A stretch of DNA of 48,643 nt from a virus. The DNA lies in IMG/VR virus record IMGVR_UViG_3300017631_000004, positions 1 to 48,643 of that record. One strand, 5' to 3'. A program made the position numbers and the translations under genes. Positions 1,897 through 25,962 of this stretch are shown here, piece by piece. Below the pieces are notes generated by a model. The model ran no database searches. It worked only from the letters and a program-made list of their open reading frames with translations, and was not told the DNA's origin. Position 1 is the stretch's first letter. Each line of letters begins with the position of its first letter.

Positions 1897-4800
1897 GTGC
1901 GAGTCCTCGGTTTATTGGTTGGAGCGCTCGCCTGGTTCCCGTTGTTGGGGACCGAGTTGTTGAGCACATCGTCGAACGACGCCGCCACGATGAACCGTGC
2001 GGGATTGTCACCGGCGGCGATCGCCGTGAAGTGTGCCTTGCCGCACTGGATTTTGGCGTTCTCCGTGCCGCGCCGGGCGTCGTCGAACAACAGCGCCGTG
2101 CTCTTGGTCTCGACCACGAAGTACAGTCGCTCCTGGCCGTCGTGCTGCACGAGCACAGCCCAGTCCGGGTTGTAGTTCCCCAAGGGCGTTGGAACCAGGA
2201 ACCATCCCGGCAACTTGGCGTAGACCTTGATCGCGGCGTTCTGCTCCAGGTTCTCCGCAAAGGTCTTCTCAACGCCCGATCCGTAGACTACCTGCTCGTG
2301 CGTGGACTTCGAAGCGTCCATCATGTTGCGGAGGTATCCGGTGAGCTCCTCGTTCTCGAAGAGCTCCTGGGCGTAGTAGAACTCGTCGCCCAGCCGCTGG
2401 TACTTGATACCGTCCACGAGGGCCATCCGCTTGCACCGATTGATGGCGTCGGCGGCAAGCTCGATGAACTCCTGAGGGTTTCGGGCGAAGTCGTCCAAGC
2501 GAGTGCTCTCGGAGAGGATTCGCTGGATGCTCCTGCGCGTTAGGCGCGTGCGGTCCTGAAGATCGGTCAGGATGTCCGGCAGGTCGATGTCGGACTCGCT
2601 CAGCACCACCACGGTCGCGCCCTGGCTCTCCGTCGCCTCGACGCCAGCCTTACCGATGGCGATGTCGGCCTTCCGCCACTGGAGCCGCGTCCTGGGGATT
2701 GCCGGCGCATCCTTCAGCGCCTTCGTGCAGTCCCGAATGAGCTTCTCGTTGTCAAAATGGACGCGGTAGGTGGTCTGGTCCCTGATTCGCTTCCAGAGGT
2801 CCTTGAACTCCTCGCTGTCAAGGACGGCGCGGCGGGTCTTCACCTGCCGGCGCTCGTCGGCGTTCTTGATCTCCAACCGCCCGGAGAGCCTGCGCAGGAT
2901 CTCCGCAACCTGGTCCTTTTGCTCGGCGAACGCGGGTGGCAGCACGAGCGTCTTGTCCTTGATCGCCCGCTTGAGGGAATCCTGTACCTTGCCACGCGCA
3001 TCGATGTACCCTTGGGCCTTGAGGTGTTCCCAGACCACCTTCGACTGATCCACGCCCATCGCCCGCACGCCGCCGTCTGCGGTTGGCACCCCCACCTGGG
3101 CAAACTGGTGGTGCTCGACGACGCCGAACCGGATGCCCGTGTCCTCCTCGATCTCCTTCTGGAGATTATCGGCGAAGGCCTCGTAGCTCTCATTGGCAAT
3201 GACCGTGAGGGTGTTGACCTCGAAGCCCCGGAGCCGCTGGCCATCCTGGTTCACGCAGAGACGCAGGCCGCGCCCGATTGTCTGCCGACGTTCCCGTTCG
3301 GTGCGGATATCCCTCAGCGAGCAGATCTGGAACACGTTGGGGTTGTCCCAGCCCTCCCTCAGCGCCGAGTGCGAGAAGATGAACTTCAACGGCGTGTCGA
3401 AGCCGAGGAGCTTCTCCTTCTCCTTCATGATCAGGTTGTACGCCCGCTCCGCAGCGTCGCGCCCGGTCTGGTTCCCTTCTTCGGTGTCCACGCTGCGTCC
3501 GGACTTCTTGTCGATCGAGAAGTACCCGTCATGCACCTCCTCGGCGGCGCGATCGAGGTCCACTTCGTTGAACAACGTGTTGTAGTCGGGGTGCCGGGCC
3601 CAGCGCTTGTACTCCTCCTCGAAGATCTTGGCATACTCGCCCTTCACCGGGTTGGCGGCCGCGTCGTACTGCCTGTACTTGTCCACGGCGTCGATGAAGA
3701 ACAGACTGAGCACCTTGATGCCCTGTCGTCGGAGCCGCTTCTCCTTGTCCAGGTGCTCCTTGATCGTGCGTTTGATCATCTCGCGCTGGACGCTGGTGGC
3801 ATCCACATCGCCCCACGACTCGCCCGGCTTCAGGTACTTCTCCCCGCCCGGATACCGCAGCTCCAGAAACTCGTTCCCCGCCTGCACGCGGATCTCGCCG
3901 ACACGGCAGTTGGCGTACATCGCCCGGCGAGTTGTCTGCTCCAAGTCGTCGCCGTCCTGCACAGTCACCTCGCGACGTTCAACGCCGTGGAGCGTGTCCA
4001 TATCGAGCTCGACCTTGGCGGTGATGACGTTCCGGCGGTTCTGCACGGAGACGAGCCGAACGAACGGCCGGTTGTGTGCACTCTCCACCGTCGCCGCCGC
4101 GACCTCGATCTGCTTCACAAGCTTCCGCTCGTAGGCATCCACCGCGTCGAGGCGGTAGACCATGTGGTGCTTGTTCGCGTGTGTCGCCGAATAGCGGAGC
4201 GTGCAGAGGGGGTTCATTGCGTCGAGGGCTTGCTTGCCCGCGCCGCTCAGGCCACCATCCACACTCTGGGGCTCATCGACGATGAGGATGGGGCGTGTGG
4301 CCTTGATCAGATCGATGGGCTTCTCGCCGCCGGTCTTCTCGCTGTCCTTGTAGAGGTTGTTGATGTCCTTCTTGTTGATCGCACCGACCGTCGTCACCAT
4401 GATCTGGATGTGCGAGCTGGTGGCGAAGTTGCGCACCTGCCCGAGACGGTTCGAGTCGTACAAGAAGAATTCAAATGGAACGCCTGCGTAGAGGCCGCGG
4501 AAGTGCTCCGCCATCGCGTCGATGGAGTGATAGACACCCTCCTTGATGGCCACCGACGGGACGATGATGACGAACTTCGTGAAGCCGAACCGTTTGTTCA
4601 GCTCGAAGATCGTGCGGAGGTAGACATAGGTCTTGCCCGTGCCGGTCTCCATCTCGACGGTGAAGTCGCCGGACGCCAGTGACGACGACGGGGACAGGCC
4701 ATTTCCGAGTTGGACACTCTTGAGGTTCTCGAGTAGTTCATCGTCCAGCAGCGTCAGTCGGTTGCCTACCCCGAGATCCCCCTCGGAGAAACCCATCCGC

Positions 4801-4931
4801 ATTTGTGGGTCGGCCGCATCACGGACAACTGTGAACTCCGTTCGACAAAGCTCCTGCCCTCGGAAGAGGTTGCAGACGGACTCAATGGCTCGCAGCTGGT
4901 AATCAAGATCAGGTTCGAAGTGAAGTTTCAT
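1893..4931 (-). CDS. Type III restriction enzyme, Res subunit
   Basis: 1012 aa SF2 helicase-nuclease. Walker A GTGK is at about residues 97-100 and motif II is DEPQ at 219-222, a form typical of type III Res subunits. An SATH motif III follows, and the arginine-finger motif VI (QTIGRGLRL) is near 550. A C-terminal PD-(D/E)XK nuclease is visible as PDWAVLV then VVETKS at about 922-943. Res subunits translocate or diffuse along DNA using ATP and cut when two unmethylated sites are engaged, acting in a complex with Mod. The Mod gene lies 10 bp upstream and the GmrSD-like gene overlaps the 3' end. Length and motif set match the family, so the enzyme looks functional. Confidence 0.93.
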   Translation of the reverse strand: MKLHFEPDLDYQLRAIESVCNLFRGQELCRTEFTVVRDAADPQMRMGFSEGDLGVGNRLTLLDDELLENLKSVQLGNGLSPSSSLASGDFTVEMETGTGKTYVYLRTIFELNKRFGFTKFVIIVPSVAIKEGVYHSIDAMAEHFRGLYAGVPFEFFLYDSNRLGQVRNFATSSHIQIMVTTVGAINKKDINNLYKDSEKTGGEKPIDLIKATRPILIVDEPQSVDGGLSGAGKQALDAMNPLCTLRYSATHANKHHMVYRLDAVDAYERKLVKQIEVAAATVESAHNRPFVRLVSVQNRRNVITAKVELDMDTLHGVERREVTVQDGDDLEQTTRRAMYANCRVGEIRVQAGNEFLELRYPGGEKYLKPGESWGDVDATSVQREMIKRTIKEHLDKEKRLRRQGIKVLSLFFIDAVDKYRQYDAAANPVKGEYAKIFEEEYKRWARHPDYNTLFNEVDLDRAAEEVHDGYFSIDKKSGRSVDTEEGNQTGRDAAERAYNLIMKEKEKLLGFDTPLKFIFSHSALREGWDNPNVFQICSLRDIRTERERRQTIGRGLRLCVNQDGQRLRGFEVNTLTVIANESYEAFADNLQKEIEEDTGIRFGVVEHHQFAQVGVPTADGGVRAMGVDQSKVVWEHLKAQGYIDARGKVQDSLKRAIKDKTLVLPPAFAEQKDQVAEILRRLSGRLEIKNADERRQVKTRRAVLDSEEFKDLWKRIRDQTTYRVHFDNEKLIRDCTKALKDAPAIPRTRLQWRKADIAIGKAGVEATESQGATVVVLSESDIDLPDILTDLQDRTRLTRRSIQRILSESTRLDDFARNPQEFIELAADAINRCKRMALVDGIKYQRLGDEFYYAQELFENEELTGYLRNMMDASKSTHEQVVYGSGVEKTFAENLEQNAAIKVYAKLPGWFLVPTPLGNYNPDWAVLVQHDGQERLYFVVETKSTALLFDDARRGTENAKIQCGKAHFTAIAAGDNPARFIVAASFDDVLNNSVPNNGNQASAPTNKPRTRT

Positions 4932-4941
4932 GGGCTCGCTC

Positions 4942-6870
4942 TCAGAGGCTCCGCACGTTCTTCAGCCCGTGCTGTTCGAGAATCGCGGCGACATTGGTCT
5001 TAACGACATCGTCGGCAAATGCGTCGTCGCGGAACACGACAGCCGTTTCACCTGCTGGGTTGATTTCCTTGTGCCAGGCGGCGATGCCGAGCGCCAGCGA
5101 CTCGCCGTTGTCTCGTGTGATTCGCTTTTCGAGGCAGGTGATGAGCGAGCCTCCGCCGATCGAATGGACCCTTTTGCCCGCAATCACTTTCTCGTCCATA
5201 GGCACGCAGATGTCGAGGCCCCGCTTCAGAAGAAGCTCGTAAAGCAGGTCATGGTCGGACCGCCCCGCTTCCACATGCTCGACCGCCGAATCGAGCGTCT
5301 CGCCGATGTCGCCGCCATCAGGTGCCCATGCGCGAATGTTCGACGAGTCCAGCTTGAACACGCGTACACCACGGTCTTGGCCGCGATCGCCAAGCTCAGG
5401 AGGCGCTGACTTTGCCTCCGCAATGACGGCTCGCAAGCGAGCCATTCCCATATCAAAAATCGACTGCATGCCCTTAGTGGGACTAGGTAGCGGCTCACGC
5501 ATCTGCACCAAGATGAACCGTCGGTTACCGCCGTCCGTCTCGTTCTGCTTGAGAACCGCATGACCAGTTGGCGCACTACCTGCGAAACAATCGAGCACGA
5601 TGTCGTTCGCGTCGGCAGTAGTTCCGATCTGCAGAATCCTCTCGATTAGGCGAGTTGGCTTTACGGAATTGAGCACGTTGTCGTTGCTCTCAAACTTGAT
5701 GTACTCCAGCAGCTCCTTCTTGGCTTCCTGCGTGTGTCCCACGTCCTTGTAGAACCACATAGTCTGCGGAACGATTCCCTGTTGTACTTCGGTCAAAAAT
5801 CGCTTCTGTGCGGGCATCGCATCGCCCTTCGGACCCCACCACACACGATTGTCCTGCACTAGTTCGTCGAATGCCTCGCGTGACTGCCTCCAGTAGCGAC
5901 CCGTTCCGGATGTGAACTTCTTCCCAGTGGGTCCGGTCACTTCGTAAAGCCCTTTGCTGTAGTAATTGCGGGCGGTCAGGTCGCTGGGCTTCCACGGACC
6001 GCGAGGATCGTCGTCGATGTTCTCGTATCGAGCATCGGCTTCCGCAGACCGGGGAAGTAAAGTCGGACGCCAAGCCGAAGCATTTTTGGCGTAGACGACG
6101 ACGTAGTCGTGGTCTTCCGAGAAGTGCCTCGCGCTGTTCTTTGGTGAATAAACCTTCTGCCAGAGCACTGTGGCGACAAAGTTCTCCTCGCCGAATATCT
6201 CCGAACACAGCTTCCTGAGGTTGTCCACTTCGCAGTCATCAATCGAAATGAAGATCGCTCCATCCTGCCGCAGCATGGAGTGTGCCAGCTTAAGCCTCGG
6301 GTACATCATGTTGACCCAAGCGGTGTGATATCGCCCGGATGTGTCGCTGTTCGTCGTCATCCGACGACCATCCGATTCGCGTTGGCCGGTCAGCATCTGG
6401 TAGTTCTGAATGCTGTCCTTGAAGTCATCCGGATAGATGAACTCGTGCCCAGTGTTGTAAGGCGGATCGATATAGATCAGTCGGACCCGACCGGCGTAGG
6501 ACTTCTGAAGAATCTTCAGCACCTCCAGGTTGTCGCCTTCGATGAATAGATTCTGAGTGGTGTCCCAATCCACGCTCTCCTCAGGGCAGGGGCGCAATGT
6601 CCCCATGCTGGAGGTGAGTGCCAGTTGTCGCGCCCGGCGCTTGCCGTGCCAGTTCAGTCCGAACTTCTCCTCCGCATCGGTCACCGTTCGGTCGCCCACA
6701 AGTTGCTTCAACACATCCACGTTGACGGATGTCCCGTTCGCCCCCTCGGTGACGAGCTCAGGGAACATCGATTTCAACGCGGCGATGTTGTTGGCCACCA
6801 TGTCGGCCGAGCGGGCCAACGGGTCTTCGGCGGTGATCTTCCGGATTGAGGGGGCAGATTGCTCGGGCAT
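4942..6870 (-). CDS. Type III restriction-modification DNA methyltransferase, Mod subunit
   Basis: 642 aa beta-class adenine-N6 methyltransferase. Catalytic motif IV DPPYNTG is at 135-141 and the SAM-binding motif I follows at about 422-435. The region between them should hold the target-recognition domain, which gives the system its sequence specificity. Motif I reads FAGSAPTGHAV where the family usually has FAGSGTTGHAV, so two residues of the glycine loop are changed. The gene directly precedes res, the standard mod-res order, with a 10 bp gap. The start is ATG, 58 bp after the DUF4391 stop. It both protects host DNA and is required by Res for cleavage. Assignment is firm; whether the altered motif I lowers SAM binding is unknown. 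Confidence 0.93.
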   Translation of the reverse strand: MPEQSAPSIRKITAEDPLARSADMVANNIAALKSMFPELVTEGANGTSVNVDVLKQLVGDRTVTDAEEKFGLNWHGKRRARQLALTSSMGTLRPCPEESVDWDTTQNLFIEGDNLEVLKILQKSYAGRVRLIYIDPPYNTGHEFIYPDDFKDSIQNYQMLTGQRESDGRRMTTNSDTSGRYHTAWVNMMYPRLKLAHSMLRQDGAIFISIDDCEVDNLRKLCSEIFGEENFVATVLWQKVYSPKNSARHFSEDHDYVVVYAKNASAWRPTLLPRSAEADARYENIDDDPRGPWKPSDLTARNYYSKGLYEVTGPTGKKFTSGTGRYWRQSREAFDELVQDNRVWWGPKGDAMPAQKRFLTEVQQGIVPQTMWFYKDVGHTQEAKKELLEYIKFESNDNVLNSVKPTRLIERILQIGTTADANDIVLDCFAGSAPTGHAVLKQNETDGGNRRFILVQMREPLPSPTKGMQSIFDMGMARLRAVIAEAKSAPPELGDRGQDRGVRVFKLDSSNIRAWAPDGGDIGETLDSAVEHVEAGRSDHDLLYELLLKRGLDICVPMDEKVIAGKRVHSIGGGSLITCLEKRITRDNGESLALGIAAWHKEINPAGETAVVFRDDAFADDVVKTNVAAILEQHGLKNVRSL

Positions 6871-6928
6871 GGTTGGCTGGTCTCTTTGCAGAGGTGAAAC
6901 GGACTAGAGTGAGGAGACGTGACAGGAC

Positions 6929-7702
6929 TCAGAGCTTTCGGCGGGCTTCGTCGTGCTGGGCTTGGAGGCGTTTGAGCTGAAGGTTCAGTTCGACCTGGCG
7001 GGCCATCTGCTTCTCCTTCGCGGCGGCGGAACGGAGGGAAGCGATCGCTGCCTCCAAGGTTGTGCAGGTTTGCAGGGCCGCCTGGCGCTCGGCGGCCCGC
7101 TGCGGCGTCTCCGCGGCGGCGAACGTGCCGGTGTGCCTCGCCGCCTGGGCGGCAAGCACGGCGTCGATCCAACCCCGGTAGACCGTATAGAGCGTGGTCC
7201 GAGGTTGGCGGGCAAGCGCCAGGGCTGCGGCGAGTTCGGTGCGGACCTGTGGCGAGTGGGTGGCCAGATCGGAGTCAACGATGTCGCCATCGAGGACAAC
7301 CTTGCCGCCCTCGTTCTGGGCCCAGCGTTTGTCCGCGAGTGAGAGTTTGGGCAGCGAGGCAGCGTCGCTCGTGATGAGCAACATGTGGTAGGGAATGGCC
7401 CGGTGGATGAGCTCGATGAGCCGGGTGCATTTGGTTCCGGTCAGTTCTCCCCCCGATCGCAACGTGAGCGACAGAACGGCAACCTCGACAACCTCTCGCG
7501 TGGAATCGCGGAATGCTGCGATTCCCACGGTCGTCGGCTTGAGGGCCGCGATCCAGCGGAGTTCCTCGACACCACCTTCGATGAGGCGTTTGTCGGCTGC
7601 CGTGGGCGCGCCGTTCTCCACCAGCAGCGTCTTGGGGACGCGTTGGCCGACCATCGCCTCGCGCGGCAGTGCGAGGGCCTCGATGACCTGATCGGGCGTC
7701 AC
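6929..7702 (-). CDS. DUF4391 domain protein
   Basis: 257 aa. The N-terminal half matches my memory of DUF4391: a short lead with P(K/R)TLLVENG, then an ADKRLIEGGVEELRW segment and a LKPTTVGIAAF strand. The C-terminal 70 residues are an alanine/glutamine-rich helix with coiled-coil character, rich in K, R and E. The biochemical function is unknown. The family commonly sits between an SNF2-type helicase gene and type III mod/res genes, as here, so it is probably an accessory subunit of the defence complex. The GTG start overlaps the helicase stop (GTGA), indicating translational coupling. Confidence 0.75.
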   Translation of the reverse strand: MTPDQVIEALALPREAMVGQRVPKTLLVENGAPTAADKRLIEGGVEELRWIAALKPTTVGIAAFRDSTREVVEVAVLSLTLRSGGELTGTKCTRLIELIHRAIPYHMLLITSDAASLPKLSLADKRWAQNEGGKVVLDGDIVDSDLATHSPQVRTELAAALALARQPRTTLYTVYRGWIDAVLAAQAARHTGTFAAAETPQRAAERQAALQTCTTLEAAIASLRSAAAKEKQMARQVELNLQLKRLQAQHDEARRKL

Positions 7703-10700
7703 GGGGTAGGACCTCCCCCGGAATCAGACGCGGTCGTGCCGGGCAACACGGCGAGGTACGCGAGCACCTCGAAGTTGCCGGTGCCGGAGAACTCGCCCCC
7801 CCGCCCGCCAGAACCCAAGCCCCCGCGACCAACCTGCGTGCCGCCCGGAGTGAAGAGGCTGGCAATCGCCCGTTCCTGGCCCTTGCCGATGACCGAGGCG
7901 ACGCCGGCTGCCAGGAGGCGCTGAGGTTCCTTCATCTCGCGGCCGTGCTTCGTGTTCTTGTCGAAACGGGCGCAAGCCGCGGCGTCGGGGAGGTCCTTGC
8001 CGACACAGAGGCGTTTGAGGCGGTCGAGGATTCGTTTCGCCTGCGTGTACGACAGGACAACAGCACCATCGTCCCCGACATGGACCAGGTAGTGCGGCGC
8101 GAGGGGATAGCCCGGTTCGGGACTGACGTTCGCGCCCGTTCCCTCGGCGCGGAGACAGAAGATGATGCCGGGCTCGATGTCGGCATCGGCGGCTGTTGTG
8201 GCGGCGAATGCACCGAGCGGTTGGCGTTCGAGCACGCCTTCGTGTTTGCGTGCGTACTCGGCGAGGTCGATGCGGAAGTCCGTGAGCGTGAGGTCGGCGA
8301 TGGAGACGCCGGTGGAGAGGTCCTCGATGTCGATGACCGCATCCTGGAGCTTGAGCAACTGTGAACGGCGGTACTCCAGGTCATTCATCGGGTTGCCGGA
8401 CTGCGCTTCGATCAGGTTCTCTTCGCCACTCGCTGAAACATCGAGCAGGACCATCTTGCCGCTGACGCGCTGTTCGAGGTTGATGTACTCCTCGAGTTCC
8501 ATATTCGGCCAGAAGTTGACGAGCTGGATCTGCTGGTTGGGCGAGCCGATCCGGTCGATGCGCCCGAATCGCTGGATGATGCGGACGGGGTTCCAGTGGA
8601 TGTCGTAGTTGATGAGCCAGTCGCAATCCTGAAGGTTCTGACCCTCGGAAATGCAGTCGGTGCCGATGAGCAGGTCGATCGTGCCCTCCTGCGCGAACTC
8701 CTCTGGCCGCTCCTTTGCCCGAGGCGCAAAGGCCGTGAGAATCGAGCCGAAGTCCTTCCGGAGGCTGCCGATCGTCGTCTGGTTGCGGCCGCTGCCCGTG
8801 ACGACGGCCGACTCGACACCGAGCGTGCGCTTCGCCCATGGGGCGAGGTGCTGGTAGAGGTACTCGGCGGTGTCGGCGAAGGCCGTGAAAATGAGCACCT
8901 TGCGATTGCCGGGGTTTACTGGGCGCTCGCACTTCTCCTGAATGACCCGGCGCAGTTCCGCGAGCTTGGCATCACGCTCGGGCACGACCTGGCTCGCGGT
9001 GGAGACGAGCATCGACAGACGGTTGCGGTCTTCGATGAGGTCCTGCCGCCATCGTACGAGGTCCACGTCGGAGAGCAGTACCTTGACCTTTCGACCGACG
9101 AGCAGACCATCGAACGCCGGGTCGTCGATGTCCACATCCTCGATGTTGATCTCTTCGACTTCGTCGCCCTTGGCGTCGATGCGAGCCAACGTTGCCTCGA
9201 CATCGCGGAGCTGTCGGCTCACGGTGAGGGCGAAGGACTGCACCGAGCTTTCCAGTCGCTTCAGCACGTTCACGCGGAGCAGGTGGATGAGGCTTTCCTC
9301 GCGGTCCACCTGACGCCAGAAGCCCTTGCCGCCGGACACTTCGGTGCTGTACTTCTTGTCGTAGGCTTCCTGCTTGTGCGTCAGCACATAGCGCAGCGGG
9401 GCGTAGGACGCGAGATTGAGACGACGGATCTCCTGATTCAACTCTCGGATCGAACGGAACTCGCCGGTGAGGTCGATGTCGGCTTTGACGTTGATCGGCT
9501 TGCGCCGCTCGGGGAACTTGCCTGTCTCGGCCGTGCCGTAGTACTTCTCGATGTGCTTGCGCGACCGGGCGATGGTGAGCAAGTCGAGCAGCTTGAAGTA
9601 GTCGAACCCGAGCATGTCCACGAGGCGACCGGGCGTGCGTTCGGAGGCATCGAGGTCCAGCCAGCGGTTGAACTGCTTCTGAGCGTGGCGGGTAGTCGAG
9701 TCGATGCTGGCGATGCCCTGGTCGGCGAGGGCGGTGTCGTCACCCTCGGTGGCGAAGGCGATCTGGTTGCGGAGATCAGCAAGACGGTTGTTCACCGGCG
9801 TGGCCGAGAGCATGAGCACCCGAGTGCGCACGCCCTGCTTGATGATCTGCTTCATCAGGCAGTCGTACCGCGTCTGCCCTCCCTGCCGAGGGCTCTTCTT
9901 GTTGCGGAAGTTGTGCGACTCGTCGATGACCACGAGGTCGTAGTTGCCCCAGTTGATGTGCGCGAGGTCAATGTCGCCGGACAACCCGCCGTCGCGGGAG
10001 AGATCGGTGTGGTTCAGCACGTCGTAGTTGAAACGGTCGGCCGCGAGGACGTTCCGGCGGTCGTTGGTGGCGTACAGCGTCCAGTTGTCACGGAGGCGCT
10101 TCGGGCACAGCACGAGCACGCGGTCGTTGCGGAGCTCGTGATACTTGATGATTGCCAACGCCTCGAACGTCTTTCCCAGTCCGACGCTGTCGGCGATGAT
10201 GCACCCGCCGAATCGGTTGAGCTTGTCGATCGCGCCGACGACCCCGTCTCGCTGGAACTTGAACAGCTTCTTCCAGACCACGGTGTTGCGGATGCCCGTA
10301 GCGGCGTTGACAACGCGGTCCTCGTCGAGGGCATCGCCGCGCAGCCCAAGCAGGTGATGGAGCATCAGCGCGTAGACAGACGCTGGATCACGATGGTCGC
10401 TGATGGAGGCGAGCAGCGAGAGCAGGTGCTGCTTGGTGGCTTCGTTTCCACGAAGTGAGTTCCATTGTGCGTCGAGCCAGCCACCGATCGTGCCCGCCTC
10501 GGCGGCGTTCTCGGAGGCCTGAATGAGGCTCAACGGATTGCCCGGCGCTATGCCAAGACCGCTGGTGCTGAAGGCGAACGCGCCGAGGATCGCCTGAACC
10601 GCGTTGTTGTCCTGCCCACGGACGACGGCTGCGCCCTGCGGAATGCCCGCGGACGCTTCACGCACCTCGGCACGGTCCCGAACCCAGGCGGCGAACTCTC

Positions 10701-10950
10701 GTGCTAGCCACGGAGCAAGCAGTTGGTTGCGTGCTTCGCGGTCGCCATCGTCCCCGAGCGGGCTCCCGAGGTGATCCGCAGTCGGGATCAGGATGCGTGC
10801 GCGTGCCACGGCTGCGAACTGCTGCATCAGCTCCCGAAAGGCGAAGAGGGACACGGTGGGCGTCACGAGGTCCAATTGGGACCCGGCACCGAGATGTCCA
10901 CGCAAAGCGTCAAGCACACGATCATCGCCGGCGTTGCGGATGACTTTCAT
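7699..10950 (-). CDS. PLD-like/SNF2-family helicase of the defence operon
   Basis: 1083 aa. Residues 1 to about 180 resemble the phospholipase D-like domain found in front of many defence helicases (a FSTSGLG segment followed by a SLIQASEN strand), but I see no HKD catalytic motif. The SNF2 core follows: GLGKT Walker A near 256, VIDESHNF motif II near 340, a SATPVNNR motif III, and the helicase C-terminal lobe with GTDCISEGQNL and QRFGRIDRIG near 800. Such enzymes are ATP-driven dsDNA translocases. It overlaps the HTH gene upstream and the DUF4391 gene downstream by four bases each. It probably acts as a sensor or translocase beside the type III system; a fully independent system is the alternative. 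Confidence 0.85.
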   Translation of the reverse strand: MKVIRNAGDDRVLDALRGHLGAGSQLDLVTPTVSLFAFRELMQQFAAVARARILIPTADHLGSPLGDDGDREARNQLLAPWLAREFAAWVRDRAEVREASAGIPQGAAVVRGQDNNAVQAILGAFAFSTSGLGIAPGNPLSLIQASENAAEAGTIGGWLDAQWNSLRGNEATKQHLLSLLASISDHRDPASVYALMLHHLLGLRGDALDEDRVVNAATGIRNTVVWKKLFKFQRDGVVGAIDKLNRFGGCIIADSVGLGKTFEALAIIKYHELRNDRVLVLCPKRLRDNWTLYATNDRRNVLAADRFNYDVLNHTDLSRDGGLSGDIDLAHINWGNYDLVVIDESHNFRNKKSPRQGGQTRYDCLMKQIIKQGVRTRVLMLSATPVNNRLADLRNQIAFATEGDDTALADQGIASIDSTTRHAQKQFNRWLDLDASERTPGRLVDMLGFDYFKLLDLLTIARSRKHIEKYYGTAETGKFPERRKPINVKADIDLTGEFRSIRELNQEIRRLNLASYAPLRYVLTHKQEAYDKKYSTEVSGGKGFWRQVDREESLIHLLRVNVLKRLESSVQSFALTVSRQLRDVEATLARIDAKGDEVEEINIEDVDIDDPAFDGLLVGRKVKVLLSDVDLVRWRQDLIEDRNRLSMLVSTASQVVPERDAKLAELRRVIQEKCERPVNPGNRKVLIFTAFADTAEYLYQHLAPWAKRTLGVESAVVTGSGRNQTTIGSLRKDFGSILTAFAPRAKERPEEFAQEGTIDLLIGTDCISEGQNLQDCDWLINYDIHWNPVRIIQRFGRIDRIGSPNQQIQLVNFWPNMELEEYINLEQRVSGKMVLLDVSASGEENLIEAQSGNPMNDLEYRRSQLLKLQDAVIDIEDLSTGVSIADLTLTDFRIDLAEYARKHEGVLERQPLGAFAATTAADADIEPGIIFCLRAEGTGANVSPEPGYPLAPHYLVHVGDDGAVVLSYTQAKRILDRLKRLCVGKDLPDAAACARFDKNTKHGREMKEPQRLLAAGVASVIGKGQERAIASLFTPGGTQVGRGGLGSGGRGGEFSGTGNFEVLAYLAVLPGTTASDSGGGPTP

Positions 10951-11210: not shown

Positions 11211-11287
11211 GATGCCGATGGTAGCAGTTCCTGGCAGTTGCTGCTCCGTGCTTGCTGTCGCGATCGGCTCCTGCCTCCGAGGTGTGG

Positions 11288-11347: not shown

Positions 11348-11623
11348 ATGCCACATCCGCGAACCAAGAACATCCCGATGATCGAGAGCGGGTGTGCATC
11401 CTGCCTACCTGCTCGTGCGGTCGAGTTGCTGGCGGCGGCCACGGCCAGGCTGATCGATGCGAACGTCCCGGTTCTGGGGCCGAACATCGAGCATGCCGGT
11501 TCTTTGGCGGCGGGACTTGACGTTTCGGATCAGCCAGCCCTCAGTGTGCCTACGGGTGAACGCGACCGTCCCGAACCGGAGAGCGCGCCGCGATGTGACC
11601 CGAAGGAGCCTGACCGCCGATGA
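11348..11623 (+). CDS. Possible small hypothetical protein
   Basis: 91 aa reading frame from ATG 11348 (ATG 11378 is an alternative). Its TGA overlaps the ATG of the DUF2924 gene by ATGA, the same coupling used by the next two gene pairs, which is the main reason to list it. There is no recognisable domain. The protein has a Cys-x-x-Cys near the start, an alanine-rich helix and a charged tail. No strong ribosome binding site is visible and the composition is not convincing, so it may be a transcribed leader. Confidence 0.3.
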   Translation: MPHPRTKNIPMIESGCASCLPARAVELLAAATARLIDANVPVLGPNIEHAGSLAAGLDVSDQPALSVPTGERDRPEPESAPRCDPKEPDRR

Positions 11624-12159
11624 CGCCCCCCACGCACGCCCCCTCAACCGCGACGAAGACCATCCAGCAACAGATCGAAGAACTCCGCCAAATGCCCGTG
11701 TCGCGGCTCCGGGACCGCTACGCCGACGCCTTCGGCGAGCCGACGACATCCGGGAACCGCCAATGGCTGTTCCGCCGTGTGGCCTGGCGAATCCAGTCAC
11801 TGGCGGAGGGAGACCTTTCCGAGCGGGCGCGGCGGCGTGCCGCCGAGTTGGCACGGGATGTCGACGTTCGGGTCCGGCCCCCCAGCGACGGGGAACCCGC
11901 CGAGGCCGTCCGCACCGGCACCCGCTTGGTGACGATCACCGGACGGATCGCCTCGGCGGGCAACGACCGCCTGCCTGCGCCCGGCTCCGTCCTTCGCCGG
12001 GTGTTCAAGGAGAAGGAGCATGAGGTCACGGTGCTCCCCCAAGGCTTCGAGTACGAGGGGAAGGTGTACCGCTCACTGTCGGCGGTGGCGACGGCGATCA
12101 CCGGTTCGCACTGGAACGGTTTCCTGTTCTTCGGGCTTACCAAGAAGGGGGCCGTATGA
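11620..12159 (+). CDS. DUF2924 domain protein
   Basis: 179 aa. The family signature is visible: an N-terminal LRQMPVSRLRDRYADAFGE segment, NRQWLFRRVAWRIQ, then LPAPGSVLRRVFKEKEHEV and a C-terminal YEGKVYRSLSAVATAITGSH segment that looks like a small DNA-binding fold. The function is unknown, but DUF2924 genes are regularly paired with large serine recombinases. Here the stop overlaps the recombinase start by ATGA. The C-terminal fold and strict pairing suggest an accessory factor for integration or excision, for instance a directionality factor; that is inference. Confidence 0.85.
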   Translation: MTPPTHAPSTATKTIQQQIEELRQMPVSRLRDRYADAFGEPTTSGNRQWLFRRVAWRIQSLAEGDLSERARRRAAELARDVDVRVRPPSDGEPAEAVRTGTRLVTITGRIASAGNDRLPAPGSVLRRVFKEKEHEVTVLPQGFEYEGKVYRSLSAVATAITGSHWNGFLFFGLTKKGAV

Positions 12160-13742
12160 CTACCGCCACGTCACAACGCTCGCGCCGAGCCGCCGTGAAC
12201 GGCACAGTGGGTGAACACGGAGCGCCCACGCCGGGGCCCCGATCGATCCGCTGCGCCATCTACACCCGCAAGAGCACCGAGGAGGGGCTCAACCAGGAGT
12301 TCAACAGCCTCGACGCCCAGCGCGAGAGCGCGATCGCGTACATCGCCAGCCAGAAGAACGAGGGGTGGCAGTGCCTCCCCGAGAAATACGACGACGGCGG
12401 GTTCACCGGCGGGAACATCGAGCGTCCGGCGCTCAAGCGCCTGATGGCCGATATCGAAACGGGGAAGGTCAACTGCGTCGTGGTCTACAAGGTCGACCGC
12501 TTGAGCCGGTCGCTCATGGACTTCGCACGGCTCATGGAGCTCTTCGACCGCAAGGGCGTGTCGTTTGTGAGCGTGACGCAGCAGTTCAATACGACCCACT
12601 CGATGGGGCGGCTGACGCTCAACATTCTTCTGTCGTTCGCGCAGTTCGAACGCGAGATCATCTCCGAGCGCACGCGTGACAAGATCGCGGCGGCGCGCCG
12701 CAAGGGGAAGTACGCGCTCGGCAAGCCGATCCTCGGGTACGACTACGTGCCCTACCCGCCGCCGTTTACGGGTCGGCGGTTAGTGGTCAACAAGGCCGAG
12801 GCGGAGCGGATTCGGCGGATCTTTGAGTTGTACCTCGAGGCACGGAGCATCATGCACGTCGCCGACGAGTGCAACGCACGGGGGTGGTCAACCAAGACCT
12901 GGACGACGACCGCCGGTCGCGTCGTCGGTAACCGGGCATTCGACAAGACCATCATCTCGCGGCTCCTCCGTAATCCCCTCTACGTCGGCAAGGTGCCGCA
13001 CAACGGAGCGGTCTACGACGGCGAGCACGAGGCCATCGTCGACGAGGATCTCTTTCGCCGCGTGCAGACCCAACTGAAGCTGGCGGCGGAACGCGGCGGG
13101 GCGAGCGTCAAGAATTCGACCGGCTCGCTGCTCGGCGGGTTGGTACGGTGCAAGCGGTGCGGGTGTGCCATGTGCCCAAGCAGTGCGTCGAAGAAGAAGC
13201 CCGACGGCTCGCGCGTCCGCTACCGCTACTACGTCTGCTCCAACGCGGTGAAGCGTGGGCGGAAGCACTGCGCTGCGCCGTCGCTACCCGGGCCTGCGCT
13301 TGAAACGTTCGTCATCGAGCAGGTTAAGGCCGTCCTCGTCAATGACCTGTCGATGCGTGCCGTCGTCGCCCGGGCGCTGGATCTGTTGCGCGAAGCGGCG
13401 GACCTCCGCGTCGCGGAGCGCACACGGTTGCAAAACGTGCTTGAACGACTGTCAGGCGAGGAGCAGACGCCAGCGACGCTCCGGGAGATCGAGCGTGTTC
13501 GTCGAACGCTGGCGGCCTTGGCCAGGCAGATTGACCTCGACGCCGACCGCCTGATCGACGAGGACGAGGTGGTCGGGGCCGTCGAAGCGTTCGACGGCGT
13601 GTGGGGCGCGATGACCCTCGCCGAAAAAGCAGAGTTCCTCCACGTCGTGATCGCCAGCGTCGAGTACGACGGCCAGTCGCAGAACGTCTCCATCACCTTT
13701 CACCCCGGAGCGGAAGCCTCGGAGAAACCAGCCCTGCCATGA
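12156..13742 (+). CDS. Large serine recombinase (phage integrase)
   Basis: 528 aa. The resolvase domain has the nucleophile in YTRKS (Ser40) and a VYKVDRLSRSLMDF segment. The LSFAQFEREIISERTRD helix leads into the recombinase domain and a zinc ribbon with cysteines at about 332-372 (CKRCGCAMC, then YYVCSN and KHC). A coiled-coil region follows near 410-480. Large serine recombinases integrate phage genomes at short att sites without host factors and need a directionality protein to excise. It lies in a three-gene cassette with DUF2924 upstream and an HTH gene downstream, both overlapping by ATGA. All key regions look intact. Confidence 0.95.
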   Translation: MTTATSQRSRRAAVNGTVGEHGAPTPGPRSIRCAIYTRKSTEEGLNQEFNSLDAQRESAIAYIASQKNEGWQCLPEKYDDGGFTGGNIERPALKRLMADIETGKVNCVVVYKVDRLSRSLMDFARLMELFDRKGVSFVSVTQQFNTTHSMGRLTLNILLSFAQFEREIISERTRDKIAAARRKGKYALGKPILGYDYVPYPPPFTGRRLVVNKAEAERIRRIFELYLEARSIMHVADECNARGWSTKTWTTTAGRVVGNRAFDKTIISRLLRNPLYVGKVPHNGAVYDGEHEAIVDEDLFRRVQTQLKLAAERGGASVKNSTGSLLGGLVRCKRCGCAMCPSSASKKKPDGSRVRYRYYVCSNAVKRGRKHCAAPSLPGPALETFVIEQVKAVLVNDLSMRAVVARALDLLREAADLRVAERTRLQNVLERLSGEEQTPATLREIERVRRTLAALARQIDLDADRLIDEDEVVGAVEAFDGVWGAMTLAEKAEFLHVVIASVEYDGQSQNVSITFHPGAEASEKPALP

Positions 13743-14302: not shown

Positions 14303-15082
14303 ATGGGACATACCCGATTAGGCAATCTGCCGCGAACGCGGAAATGGCAGGAGGTGGTCGGCCTCATTGCTATCGGTGCGGGCGCAGACCAGATCGCCAA
14401 CGCTGTGATTCGAGCGGCCGAGCAGGGGCTCAAGCAGGCCGCCCACCACAAGGGTCTGGTTGAAGCGTTCTGGTCGTTGACCCAGTTGACGGCCGCCGCG
14501 CGTGAGAAGGACTTTGCTGCAGCGCTCAGGGAGCGCGGTTTCAACGTTCCGAACAACCCGAGTCTTCCCGCAATCCTCGCTGCAGTTTCGGACGCAATCG
14601 ACCGGAGCATGCCCAACAACAAGGGCCGTACTGACCTCGGCGAGATGGCTCAGAGTGCAGCCACGGAGACCATCAACCGGATCGTTACGGAGCGAACTTC
14701 TTCTCTGTTCGGCTCAACGTCCGAAGACGTTCAGCGTGCCTTCCGCGAACTGGGCACGGTGAAGAACTTTGGCGATCTGGGTCGCCGCTTCTACGGACAA
14801 CTGATGGGCAAGGTGCTGCAGTCCTATGTAAGCAGAGAGAGCGCAAACCATGTGGGCGAAGGCCAGCGCTTTGCTAATCTCGCCTCGAAGGCCAGCTTTG
14901 ATGACGCCTTGAGCACGCACTGTCGCCAGGCATCAGTCATCGTCGAGCGGTTCGCCGGGGAGTGGGTTTCAAAGAAGACGTGGCAGAACGGGGAGGTTGG
15001 TATCTCGCGTGCAGATGCCGAGGGCTTCGCGCACGTGGCGATGAAGAAGATCGTGGCGGAGCTCAAGGAGGGTGCCAAGTGA
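14303..15082 (+). CDS. Unknown partner protein of the QueC-like enzyme
   Basis: 259 aa, mostly helical, no recognised domain. It begins Met-Gly and has no signal peptide or membrane segment. Three helical blocks are separated by a polar stretch near 90-110. Its stop overlaps the GTG of the QueC-like gene (GTGA), so the two are translated together. In the Qat defence system the QueC-like QatC has a partner, QatB, of similar size just upstream; this protein has that position, but I cannot show sequence similarity to QatB. An N-terminal glycine next to a QueC-like enzyme is notable, because I recall proposals that such enzymes modify protein N-termini. The cassette lies between phage modules, a common place for cargo. 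Confidence 0.7.
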   Translation: MGHTRLGNLPRTRKWQEVVGLIAIGAGADQIANAVIRAAEQGLKQAAHHKGLVEAFWSLTQLTAAAREKDFAAALRERGFNVPNNPSLPAILAAVSDAIDRSMPNNKGRTDLGEMAQSAATETINRIVTERTSSLFGSTSEDVQRAFRELGTVKNFGDLGRRFYGQLMGKVLQSYVSRESANHVGEGQRFANLASKASFDDALSTHCRQASVIVERFAGEWVSKKTWQNGEVGISRADAEGFAHVAMKKIVAELKEGAK

Positions 15083-17106
15083 ACGCACCCGACATGCTGT
15101 TTCTCTGCAATGAATCGGCCGCGGGCCGCTCGGGGTCTACCAACGGCGTGGCGAAACTTCGCACGGTTGGGTCCGGCAAGAACGTTCGGCTTGAGCTCGA
15201 CGACGTTGGTCGGCAGCTCAATCAGGACATCCCCGCCGCACTGATTGACCTCGTCGAGATTGCAGCTCTGGTGTACGTCGCCGATCAGATGGAGCATCGC
15301 GGTGCCAACGACGTAGAGTCGATGGGCGCTGGCTGGCGGCGGCGACTGCGCTTCGAGATCCCTGTCCGGGTGCCAACACTCTGGAAGTCAGCAGCGGTAT
15401 CCGACGCCCTCATTGAACTGCTCAGTTTTCTGTCCGAGGACGAGTACGAGTTCACATTTACCCAGTACAAGTCACCGCCAAGCCTTGACAGCTATCTGAA
15501 CTTCGCAGGCTCGACAACCGACAAGGCTCCCGATTCAGTGATCCTGTTCTCTGGAGGACTGGACTCTCTTGGCGGCGTGGTCAAAGAGGTTGCTCAGGAA
15601 GGGCGATCCGCCTTGTTGCTGACCCATGAGTCAACGACCAAGCTGCGCACACGCCATCGCGCCCTTCGCGGGATGATCGACTCGGCTGCCAAGGGACCGC
15701 CGCCTCAGCACATCACCGTGCGAGTGAACAAGAAGGATCAGGTCGAGCGTGAGTACACGCAGCGGGCTCGTTCGTTCCTATACGCATCGCTGGCCGTCGC
15801 CGTCTCACGGATGGCCGGGCTCGACGCAATCCGGTTCTACGAGAACGGCATTGTCAGCCTGAACCTTCCGCTGTCGCCGCAGGTTGTGGGGTCGCGTGCA
15901 ACGCGAACGACGCATCCACGCGTGTTGGCCTGCATGCGCCGGCTCTTCTCGCTCGTGACGGATACGACGTTCGGTGTCGACAATGGCTTCATCTGGAAGA
16001 CCAAGTCCGACGTGGTCCGTGACATTGTGGCAAGCGGGAACGGGTCGATGATTCCGCTGTCTACCAGTTGTACGCACACCTGGGTGTTTAGCAACGCCAA
16101 GCCCCACTGTGGCACATGCTCGCAGTGTATCGATCGACGTTTTGCAGTGCTCGCGGGCGGTGCCGGTGCATTCGAGCGAGCGGACACATACTCGCACGAC
16201 CTCTTGGTGGATGCGCGTGAAGCGGGCGAATCGCGAGTGATGCTCGCCTCATATGTGGAGATCGCCCAGCAGGTGTCGGAGATGTCCGAAACCGACTTCT
16301 TCAACAGGTTCGGCGAGGCTGCCCGTGTGCTCATCCACGTGGGGCTTCCCGCAGACGAGGCGGCCCGAAAGGTTCACCAGCTCTATCAGCAGCATGGCAA
16401 GCAGGTGATGTCCGTCGTTGACTCCGCGATCGACGCGCACAAGGCGGCGATCCGTAAGCGCACCCTTCCGGAGAGTTGTCTGCTCCGCCTGGTTCAGGAT
16501 CCCAATCCAGTCGTCGTCGCGTCCGGCGTCGTCGGGGTCGCGCCACAGCCCGAGCCGCCGCCGCCCGGGTATCAGCTCGTGCAGATGGGTCAGGGGTGGA
16601 CACTCCGATTCGATGGCGTCGAGAAGCACTTCGAGTTGAGCGTCGGGATGATTTACCTCCGCGAGATGATCGCGTTCCCAGCCAAGCGGTTCACCGTGGC
16701 TGAGCTCTATGTGCTTGCACGTCCGCACATGAAGGACATCCCGTCGGCGCGCTCCGAGGCGGTGTTCGACCAAGCAGCGGCCCATGCGTATTGGAAACGG
16801 TTGTCGGAATTCGACGAACTGATTGCGGCCGCGGAGAAGGCTGGCGACGACACGGCAGCGAGCGTGGCAAAGAACGAGAAGGAAGGGCTCCTCGCTGAAC
16901 TGAAGGCGGCCAACTTCAAGGGACGGCCCAAGACCGAGAGCAAAGACCACAAGCGCCTGCGCGACCGTGTCCGCAACGCGGTCGACCGCGCAATCGCGAC
17001 CATCACGAAGTACCACAGCGCGGCCGGCGCACATTTTGAGGCCGCCGTAACCCGTGGATCGGTCATGGGTTACAACCCGCCCGAGACTCCGCCGTGGGAG
17101 TTTTGA
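15079..17106 (+). CDS. QueC-like PP-loop enzyme with fused C-terminal domain
   Basis: 675 aa from GTG 15079, chosen because AAGGAGGG lies about six bases upstream and the codon overlaps the preceding stop. The N-PP/PP-loop motif SGGLDS is at 158-163. A zinc site follows at Cys331, Cys344, Cys347 and Cys350. Both are hallmarks of QueC, which makes 7-cyano-7-deazaguanine. QueC itself is only about 230 aa, and no other queuosine-pathway gene is nearby, so this is a repurposed relative like QatC of Qat or Cap9 of some CBASS systems. Residues of about 497-675 (WTLRFDGVEKHFELSVGMIY, ending near GYNPPETPPWEF) resemble a C-terminal domain I associate with ATPase-type transcriptional regulators. Such a fusion is not the usual QatC architecture. 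Candidate anti-phage cargo. Confidence 0.8.
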   Translation: MNAPDMLFLCNESAAGRSGSTNGVAKLRTVGSGKNVRLELDDVGRQLNQDIPAALIDLVEIAALVYVADQMEHRGANDVESMGAGWRRRLRFEIPVRVPTLWKSAAVSDALIELLSFLSEDEYEFTFTQYKSPPSLDSYLNFAGSTTDKAPDSVILFSGGLDSLGGVVKEVAQEGRSALLLTHESTTKLRTRHRALRGMIDSAAKGPPPQHITVRVNKKDQVEREYTQRARSFLYASLAVAVSRMAGLDAIRFYENGIVSLNLPLSPQVVGSRATRTTHPRVLACMRRLFSLVTDTTFGVDNGFIWKTKSDVVRDIVASGNGSMIPLSTSCTHTWVFSNAKPHCGTCSQCIDRRFAVLAGGAGAFERADTYSHDLLVDAREAGESRVMLASYVEIAQQVSEMSETDFFNRFGEAARVLIHVGLPADEAARKVHQLYQQHGKQVMSVVDSAIDAHKAAIRKRTLPESCLLRLVQDPNPVVVASGVVGVAPQPEPPPPGYQLVQMGQGWTLRFDGVEKHFELSVGMIYLREMIAFPAKRFTVAELYVLARPHMKDIPSARSEAVFDQAAAHAYWKRLSEFDELIAAAEKAGDDTAASVAKNEKEGLLAELKAANFKGRPKTESKDHKRLRDRVRNAVDRAIATITKYHSAAGAHFEAAVTRGSVMGYNPPETPPWEF

Positions 17107-24132: not shown

Positions 24133-24591
24133 CCCCACCCCTCCCCCGGCCCCCCGCCTCCCCACCGCAGCGCCCATGCAGGTCGTGTGCCAGGCCGCGC
24201 CTAGCGGGAGCCTTACAGCCGGAAGCCTTACGGGAGGGGAGGCGGATGGCGTTAGGTACTCCCCGGGCCAGATCGCGTGGCTAGGCCCGCGGGAACAGCC
24301 GCGCTTGGCGACAGAGTTTGTTTCGCCCGTCCGAGCGCGGGGCGGCCCCGTGGCGGGGTTGGTAGAACCGCCCGCCAGGAACGCGACGTGGGCCAACGTG
24401 GGCGGACCCGTGGCCAACGGGCGCGGCCCGTAGCGCGGGGAATCGGGGCGCTAAGCGCTCCCGGACGGGCCCGTCGCCCGAGCGATCCAGCCATCCAGCG
24501 ATCCACCGATCCCCGGACCCACCGCATGTGCGGCGGGCCACCACGACGCTTTGCGCTGGCGTTTCCCGCCGCGCTTCCGACGGAGATCGCT

Positions 24592-25962
24592 ATGAACATC
24601 GAGACGCTGCCCATCGACGCGGTCAAGGAATACGACCGTAATCCCCGCACCATCAACGACGCCGCCATCGACGCGGTGGCCAAGAGCATCGAGGCGTTCG
24701 GCTTCAAGGTGCCGATCCTGATCGACGCCGACGGCGTGATCATCGCCGGGCACACGCGACTCCGCGCGGCGCGGAAACTCGGGATCAAGGAGGTGCCGAC
24801 CATCCGCGCCGATGATCTGACGCCGGAACAGGTCAAGGCGCTGCGCATCGCCGACAACAAGGTCGCCACGCTGACTTCGTGGGACATGGAGCTCCTGCCG
24901 CTGGAGCTGGCCGACCTCAAGGGCGTGGACTTCGACCTCGCGCTGCTCGGCTTCAGCGACGAGGATCTCAGCGCCATCATGGCTCCCGCGGGCAGCGAGG
25001 GTTTGACCGATCCTGATGACGTGCCGGGCGCACCGGACGCAGCTACGACGGTGCCCGGGGACATCTGGGTGCTCGGCAACCACCGGCTGATGTGCGGCGA
25101 CTCGTCCACGCCCGAGGATCTGGACCGTCTGCTCGACGGCCAGCCGATCCACCTCGTGAACACGGACCCGCCGTACAACGTGAAGGTCGAGCCCCGCTCA
25201 AACAACGCCATCGTCGCGGGCCTGAGTTCGTTCGCGCTGCCCGGCAAGGCAGACCAGCACGATCAGCAGAGCGCCGACCTCAACCGCTACCCCGAGAAGA
25301 GCCGCGCCACGCACAAGAAGCTCCGGGCCAAAGACCGGCCGCTCGCCAACGACTTCGTGTCCGACGACGAGTTCGACCGATTGCTCGCGGCGTGGTTCGG
25401 AAACATCACCCGTGTGCTGATCCCCGGCGGCACCTTCTACATCTGGGGCGGCTACGCGAACTGTGGCAACTACCCGCCGGTGCTAAAGCGGTGCGAGCTC
25501 TACTTCGCGCAAGCGATCATCTGGATCAAGGAGCACCCGGTCCTCACGCGGAAGGACTTCATGGGGAACCACGAGTGGTGCTTCTACGGCTGGAAGGAAG
25601 GCGCGGCGCACCGCTTCTTCGGCCCCGCGAACGTGCCCGATACCTGGTCGATCAAGAAGGTCAACCCGCAGAGCATGGTCCACCTCACGGAGAAGCCCGT
25701 GGAACTCGCGCGGCGGGCCATCGAGTTTTCATCGCGTCCGGGAGAGAACGTGCTCGACCTCTTCGGCGGCAGCGGCTCCACGCTCATCGGCGCGGAGATG
25801 ACCGGGCGGCACGCGTTCCTCATGGAGCTCGACGCGCTCTACTGCGATGTCATCGTGCAGCGCTGGGAGAAGTTCACGGGCCGCAAGGCGGAGCGACTCC
25901 CGGCAAAGGGTGTGGCCGAAGAGAAAGCCGCGACGAGCGTCGCGGCTGGGAGCAAGGCCTGA
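24592..25962 (+). CDS. ParB-domain DNA methyltransferase of the phage
   Basis: 456 aa from ATG 24592, preceded by GGAG; an upstream open extension in the same frame lacks protein-like character. Residues 1 to about 110 form a ParB/sulfiredoxin-like domain (EYDRNPRTINDAAIDAV, then GVIIAGHTRLRAARKLG). The methyltransferase follows with DPPYN near 192-196 and motif I FGGSGST near 391-397, an order typical of beta-class N6-adenine or N4-cytosine enzymes. ParB-fused methyltransferases are common in prophages and are thought to protect phage DNA from restriction or mark packaging and replication. It stands alone on the plus strand, convergent with the five small minus-strand genes. Confidence 0.92.
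   Translation: MNIETLPIDAVKEYDRNPRTINDAAIDAVAKSIEAFGFKVPILIDADGVIIAGHTRLRAARKLGIKEVPTIRADDLTPEQVKALRIADNKVATLTSWDMELLPLELADLKGVDFDLALLGFSDEDLSAIMAPAGSEGLTDPDDVPGAPDAATTVPGDIWVLGNHRLMCGDSSTPEDLDRLLDGQPIHLVNTDPPYNVKVEPRSNNAIVAGLSSFALPGKADQHDQQSADLNRYPEKSRATHKKLRAKDRPLANDFVSDDEFDRLLAAWFGNITRVLIPGGTFYIWGGYANCGNYPPVLKRCELYFAQAIIWIKEHPVLTRKDFMGNHEWCFYGWKEGAAHRFFGPANVPDTWSIKKVNPQSMVHLTEKPVELARRAIEFSSRPGENVLDLFGGSGSTLIGAEMTGRHAFLMELDALYCDVIVQRWEKFTGRKAERLPAKGVAEEKAATSVAAGSKA

Follow-up and report, generated by a model that had tools for sequence, protein, structure and literature searches.

A prophage-borne QatB–QatC pair as a probable stand-alone immune module with a variable fused tail

Introduction

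What does a QueC-family enzyme do inside a prophage, coupled to a small partner protein? This question is raised by a two-gene locus at positions 14303-17106 of the viral record IMGVR_UViG_3300017631_000004, whose 48,643 nucleotides are called the window. A first-pass annotation had proposed a compact, undescribed defence or protein-modification system. Enzymes of the QueC family are known in immunity. Cap9 attaches CDG to a glycine at the N-terminus (PMC13279940; PMC11996544). In engineered operons QatBC without QatA and QatD suffices for defence against lambda-vir, and this defence is abolished by QatB G2D, by deletion of the Pro16/Trp18 stretch and by the QatC changes SS-to-AA and TT-to-AA (PMC13279940). 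The QatC reaction has not been reconstituted so far, and the same work states as open questions what QatC makes and how modified QatB stops phages (PMC13279940). Our analysis suggests that the present pair is probably a naturally stand-alone, phage-borne QatB–QatC immune module, for which a mechanism can be proposed.

The locus and its phage

Two translationally coupled open reading frames are found on the + strand. Gene A (14303..15082, +) encodes 259 residues of a QatB-like partner and putative substrate protein, starting with MGHTRLGNLPRTRKW. Gene B (15079..17106, +) encodes a QatC-like enzyme of 675 residues with a C-terminal extension. Its GTG start overlaps the stop codon of gene A by 4 nt, as GTGA, and a Shine-Dalgarno-like AAGGAGGG for gene B (15065..15072, +) is located inside the end of gene A, six bases upstream of the GTG. 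The pair had been placed in a prophage, and portal, capsid and terminase genes together with a serine recombinase indeed identify a temperate phage. The large serine recombinase (integrase; 12156..13742, +) lies just upstream of the pair, which it precedes together with a DUF2924 gene (11620-12159), both recognised by Pfam. Synteny with the related loci L001, L002 and L105 begins near 11285 and extends through the pair. Compared with the close relative L001, dN/dS is 0.028 for A, 0.046 for the core of B and 0.23 for the C-terminus of B; both genes are under strong purifying selection, far beyond chance.

No other queuosine gene had been noticed nearby, and none was found by us: Pfam scans of the window proteins, in which 25 of 27 families were visible, revealed no queuosine-pathway family, no FolE, QueD, QueE, TGT or DpdA context and no nucleotidyltransferase. 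A Cap10-like transglycosylase was likewise not seen among the window proteins.

Several other features of the window deserve mention. A defence island on the minus strand (1-10950) contains a GmrSD-like enzyme, type III restriction and methylation subunits, a DUF4391 protein and an HKD+Snf2 helicase. Since it is located left of about 11285, where homology to related phages starts, it may belong to the host or be separate cargo. A DNA methyltransferase fused to a ParB-like domain is encoded at 24277-25962 (+). Between the terminase and portal genes, on the opposite strand, lies a gene for a 601-residue protein (31489-33294, -) with a weak match to phrog_12991.

Gene B encodes a QatC homologue

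Sequence comparison relates B to QatC of PADLOC (E 2e-49), to the solved QatC in the PDB (E about 1e-31) and to the NCBIfam QatC family, here with 183.6 bits and thus below the cut-off of 280. An AlphaFold2 model of B (46 sequences, pLDDT 82.9) superimposes on Pseudomonas aeruginosa QatC (9y01_B) with Z 32.9 over 400 aligned residues at 25% identity. The QatC-homologous region, as delimited by this comparison, covers residues 4-477 (15088..16509, +) and comprises an N-terminal extension, the QueC core and the C-terminal helices that bind QatB.

The SGGLDS motif and the four cysteines reported in the first-pass annotation of the PP-loop enzyme are both present. The SGGLDS loop for ATP pyrophosphate binding (residues 158-163; 15550..15567, +) is found by motif conservation, and S158, G159, G160, D162 and S163 are invariant among 87 family members and 11 canonical QatCs. 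The zinc-site cysteines C331, C344, C347 and C350 (16069..16128, +) are kept in 86-87 of the 87 members. The QatC-specific loop N262-H279 (15862..15915, +), which in QatC contacts QatB (PMC13279940), has a length of 18 residues in all 98 sequences. Within it N262, R276 and H279 are invariant, position 275 is Thr or Ser, and T277 is Thr in 85 of 87 members; T275 and T277 correspond to QatC T278 and T280. B thus keeps the Thr-Arg-Thr that stands in place of the Tyr/Asp substrate residues of QueC and Cap9. Across the 87 members SGGxDS, D57, D69, R74, W86, R229, R231, P280 and the zinc cysteines show little or no variation. Functional roles of the conserved QatC residues have been described (PMC13279940, PMC13329287). 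In short, B is homologous to QatC, and its ATP site, zinc site, Thr-Arg-Thr loop and QatB-contacting loop are all intact.

Could B instead be a metabolic enzyme of the QueC type that supplies preQ0, either for tRNA or for 7-deazaguanine modification of phage DNA? The model does contain the QueC core fold (Z 13.7 against QueC, 12.8 against Cap9), and the sequence matches Pfam QueC weakly, just below the cut-off. However, the nearest fold and the nearest sequence are both QatC, no other queuosine-family match occurs among the scanned window proteins, and E. coli QatC fails to complement queC (PMC13329287). At the positions of the QueC substrate residues B shows the same replacements as QatC. The motif set already contradicts QueC-type metabolism, and on these residues we rejected it; as an explanation of the locus it is scarcely credible.

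Gene A has a predicted QatB fold

The partner had been described as an unknown protein, and this description has to be revised. No sequence family in Pfam, NCBIfam or PHROGs matches A, and searches against PDB and PADLOC sequences gave chance-level matches only (SgraIR-like). A profile comparison with nine canonical QatBs is weak (P 0.004), too weak to stand alone, so that the identity was settled by structure comparison. The best match of the AlphaFold2 model of A (36 sequences, pLDDT 86.2) is QatB (9y01_A), with 206 of 215 residues aligned at 3.9 Å and a Z of 12.3, which taken alone is borderline for an all-helical protein according to the tool's own note. The next entry after QatB, a dynamin-like protein of unrelated fold, reaches Z 5.9. 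QatB was missed by Foldseek when ranked by E-value and was recovered by VIA-align. We consider the assignment of a QatB fold to the modelled A firm, given how far the next match falls behind in Z, where the gene lies in the operon and the Met-Gly with which the protein begins. Membership of CBASS was rejected on the same comparison, as A has the QatB fold and B has T275/T277 rather than the Cap9-type Tyr/Asp.

Of 245 stretches of 15 alignment columns in A, the N-terminal tail MGHTRLGNLPRTRKW (14303..14347, +) ranks first in conservation. Its Gly2 codon (14306-14308, +) marks the predicted modification site after removal of the methionine. P. aeruginosa QatB requires G2 and the Pro16/Trp18 stretch (PMC13279940). 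A carries G2, P10 and W15, that is, a Met-Gly start with a Pro and a Trp in the tail; the exact canonical MGTS motif is absent. Across the branch the partner starts with MGHxRLGxLPxTxxW. The collection scan for the family used a narrower alignment, and because it also used the MGH motif, N-terminal conservation was measured anew on viral loci retrieved by B alone. In these loci every A with a readable start has a start codon followed by Gly, and His3 follows Gly2 in nearly all of them. Residue 10 of A aligns with residue 64 of QatB, which leaves A a tail of about 12 residues compared with 63 in QatB.

Distribution of the pair

The scans yielded 162 open reading frames of the B type, and A lies directly upstream in 154 of them, as an overlapping two-gene unit; several of the remaining eight loci begin at a contig edge. 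The pair is carried by prophages, on plasmids and on chromosomes across many phyla. The genomes include Planctomycetota, Pseudomonadota, Acidobacteriota, Verrucomicrobiota, Myxococcota, Chloroflexota and others, the closest being Phycisphaerales. A is present in 9 of 392 sampled genomes from the phylum of L104 (Phycisphaeraceae, Planctomycetota) and in 3 of 398 from that of L143 (Comamonadaceae, Pseudomonadota), the centre genome being counted in each case.

QatA and QatD are absent from the examined flanks of every family locus (8-9 kb at most, and shorter where the contig is short); the same test finds both genes at all 11 canonical loci. The earlier statement that QatA, QatD and a CD-NTase are missing therefore stands for these flanks and for the Pfam families of the window, A itself having the predicted QatB fold. 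A and B are inherited together as a coupled unit, without QatA/QatD in the examined flanks. A tree of 98 sequences separates the 11 canonical QatCs from all others at a branch with support 99, a split at which some long branches meet. The family branch is defined by the MGHxRLGxLPxTxxW partner with its short tail, the lack of QatA/QatD and a variable fused C-terminal module. No description of it was found in the literature searched, which covered few subscription journals and no preprints. As the window enzyme and the Pseudomonadota members sampled score below the NCBI QatC cut-off and A has no family match, these systems probably go uncounted.

Three genomes of the Pseudomonadota sample (G613, G654, G805) encode QatC-like proteins of about 460 residues below the NCBI cut-off and without a match to an A-type partner, possibly another divergent QatC group. 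Many of the viral contigs L024-L058 stop where B stops or shortly behind it, as though the pair stood at the prophage border.

The neighbourhood of the pair was surveyed with 132 proteins adjoining 36 chromosomal pairs. Serine recombinases (9), tyrosine integrases (5) and DUF2924 proteins (4) are most frequent, and known defence genes are few among the immediate neighbours in other genomes. A gene-neighbourhood survey had been recommended in the first-pass annotation. The pairs are conserved (154 of 162 loci), with no context of queuosine or deazapurine-DNA operons. Since homologous pairs are conserved and lie outside queuosine operons, the objection that this annotation had raised against its own proposal falls.

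A phage-borne copy of the core of a host defence system might also serve counter-defence, with the QatBC copy poisoning or decoying the host qatABCD; the diverged substrate tail, MGH instead of MGTS, would suit such a role. The active site is nevertheless fully conserved and not dead, and chromosomal and plasmid copies exist. Canonical QatC is rare, with 8 of 398 sampled Pseudomonadota genomes above the cut-off, whereas the pair occurs across many phyla. We regard counter-defence as very improbable.

The fused C-terminal module

Beyond residue 477 or so of B the family diverges. In the window enzyme the variable module covers residues 497-675 (16567..17103, +), as delimited by the secondary structure of the AlphaFold2 model, in which a beta-rich, winged-helix-like part is combined with a coiled coil. 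An extra domain at about 497-675 that resembles one from regulators had been suspected, and this is borne out: the segment lies outside QatC, and the same domain ends a TPR-type protein of Nonomuraea (L093). The tail has no family match in Pfam or the PDB and gave coiled-coil and chance matches only against solved structures. A weak in-register match to Trans_reg_C-type tails (P 0.0019), together with the predicted strands and helices, hints that the window-type tail may be a winged helix.

Among the members of a set reduced at 75%, 39 tails are of the window type, 25 of type II and 6 of type III, and 16 are others or none. Type III tails pass Pfam Trans_reg_C, and type II tails give weak matches, mostly to DNA-binding helix-turn-helix proteins. 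In plasmid p1 of Leptospira noguchii (L008) the tail is a DpnII/MboI-type nuclease (PF18742, 41.4 bits, cut-off 27); this QatC-like nuclease fusion is located at 6780-8645 of that locus, and its partner begins with MGHERLGILPKTRSW. The B protein of L121 has no tail. Two Acidobacteriota loci, L142 and L156, encode B proteins of 914 and 922 residues with a C-terminal extension of about 450 residues, for which no Pfam match was found in L142.

Such tails suggest another role, a switch of lysogeny or gene regulation, in which the winged-helix tail of B would bind phage DNA, modification of A would tune this binding, and defence would play no part. The resemblance of type II and III tails to OmpR/PhoB-type DNA-binding domains, the window-type tail of the TPR-type protein and the adjoining integrase are in line with it. 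But one member has a nuclease as its tail and another has none, the pair occurs in phages, on plasmids and on chromosomes across many phyla beside unrelated neighbours, and defence is an established function of the QatBC core (PMC13279940). We consider a regulatory switch unlikely, though less so than counter-defence.

Proposed mechanism

For a QatB–QatC immune module we count the fold matches of A and B, which far exceed those to the next unrelated folds, the overlapping gene pair, the absence of QatA and QatD from the family loci, the published defence by QatBC, the placement beside integrases, the purifying selection, the Leptospira nuclease, the MG(H) conservation and the QatC residues. 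The scarcity of known defence genes among immediate neighbours in other genomes counts against it. Given the QatC homology and the conserved residues, modification of Gly2 of A by B is the best explanation: by analogy with the studied systems, the N-terminal glycine of A is likely modified in an ATP-dependent manner, with anti-phage immunity as the outcome. B would then couple a small molecule to the start of A.

A and B would form a 1:1 complex. After removal of the methionine, the short tail of A (G2-H3...W15) would enter the active site of B, a predicted reach against which its length of about 12 rather than 63 residues counts. B would spend ATP on activating a small carboxylate donor and link this donor to the terminal amino group of Gly2, in the way that Cap9 uses 7-carboxy-7-deazaguanine (CDG) in type IV CBASS. 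The modified complex would shield the lysogen from other phages. The fused module, winged-helix-like in most members and a DpnII/MboI-type nuclease in the Leptospira plasmid, might replace the contribution of QatA/QatD in qatABCD by sensing, DNA-targeting or effector work.

Since T278/T280 replace the CDG-binding Tyr/Asp, the donor may be a compound other than CDG. Canonical QueC is present in 49 of 64 genomes and QueD-type PTPS in 53. The isolates L145 (Tepidicella) and L178 (Tropicimonas) carry an intact-looking pair and neither QueC nor QueD despite TGT, with draft gaps possible. From these two isolates it is suggestive, for draft assemblies, that de novo supply of CDG is common and perhaps not required. 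A more specific version of the immune reading, in which a widespread undescribed branch uses QatBC alone to join a donor other than de novo CDG to the glycine of a short-tailed QatB, with the swappable tail as sensor or effector, is tentative and may well prove wrong.

The branch is nature's minimal QatBC and shows QatBC persisting alone across many phyla. With almost no tail, its QatB offers a simple substrate for experiments in vitro, hosts apparently without QueC and QueD bear on the identity of the donor, and the exchangeable tails, one of them a recognisable nuclease, point to a possible effector or sensor site.

Comparison with known systems

The evidence points to a natural two-gene form of QatBC-type QueC immunity whose substrate motif differs, whose tail is short and which carries fused modules. 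Of the original proposal, the QueC-family pair with defence or protein modification as its likely role is retained; the cassette is a branch of QatBC and not wholly new.

A comparison with qatABCD shows that the pair shares the predicted QatB fold and Met-Gly N-terminus of A, a QatC homologue with all signature motifs and the same 18-residue loop, and the order of a QatB-type gene before an overlapping QatC-type gene. It differs by the lack of QatA (KAP-type ATPase) and QatD (TatD nuclease), by MGHxRLGxLPxTxxW with about 12 tail residues in place of MGTS with a long disordered tail of 63, by the extra C-terminal module of B, and by its separation in the tree from the 11 canonical QatCs (support 99), the window enzyme scoring below the NCBI cut-off. 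Like Cap9 and its CD-NTase in type IV CBASS, the pair combines a QueC-family enzyme with a partner that has a presumed acceptor glycine at its N-terminus; unlike them, A is no CD-NTase, B has the QatC-type Thr-Arg-Thr instead of Tyr/Asp, and the window proteins include no Cap10-like transglycosylase. With QueC-type enzymes B shares the Rossmann core, SGGxDS and the zinc site, but it has N- and C-terminal extensions, other substrate motifs, a partner protein and no queuosine context. The tails of three members are similar to the OmpR/PhoB-type winged helix (Trans_reg_C) above the Pfam cut-off, whereas here the tail is fused to QatC, and that of the window enzyme is weakly similar, with a coiled-coil insertion.
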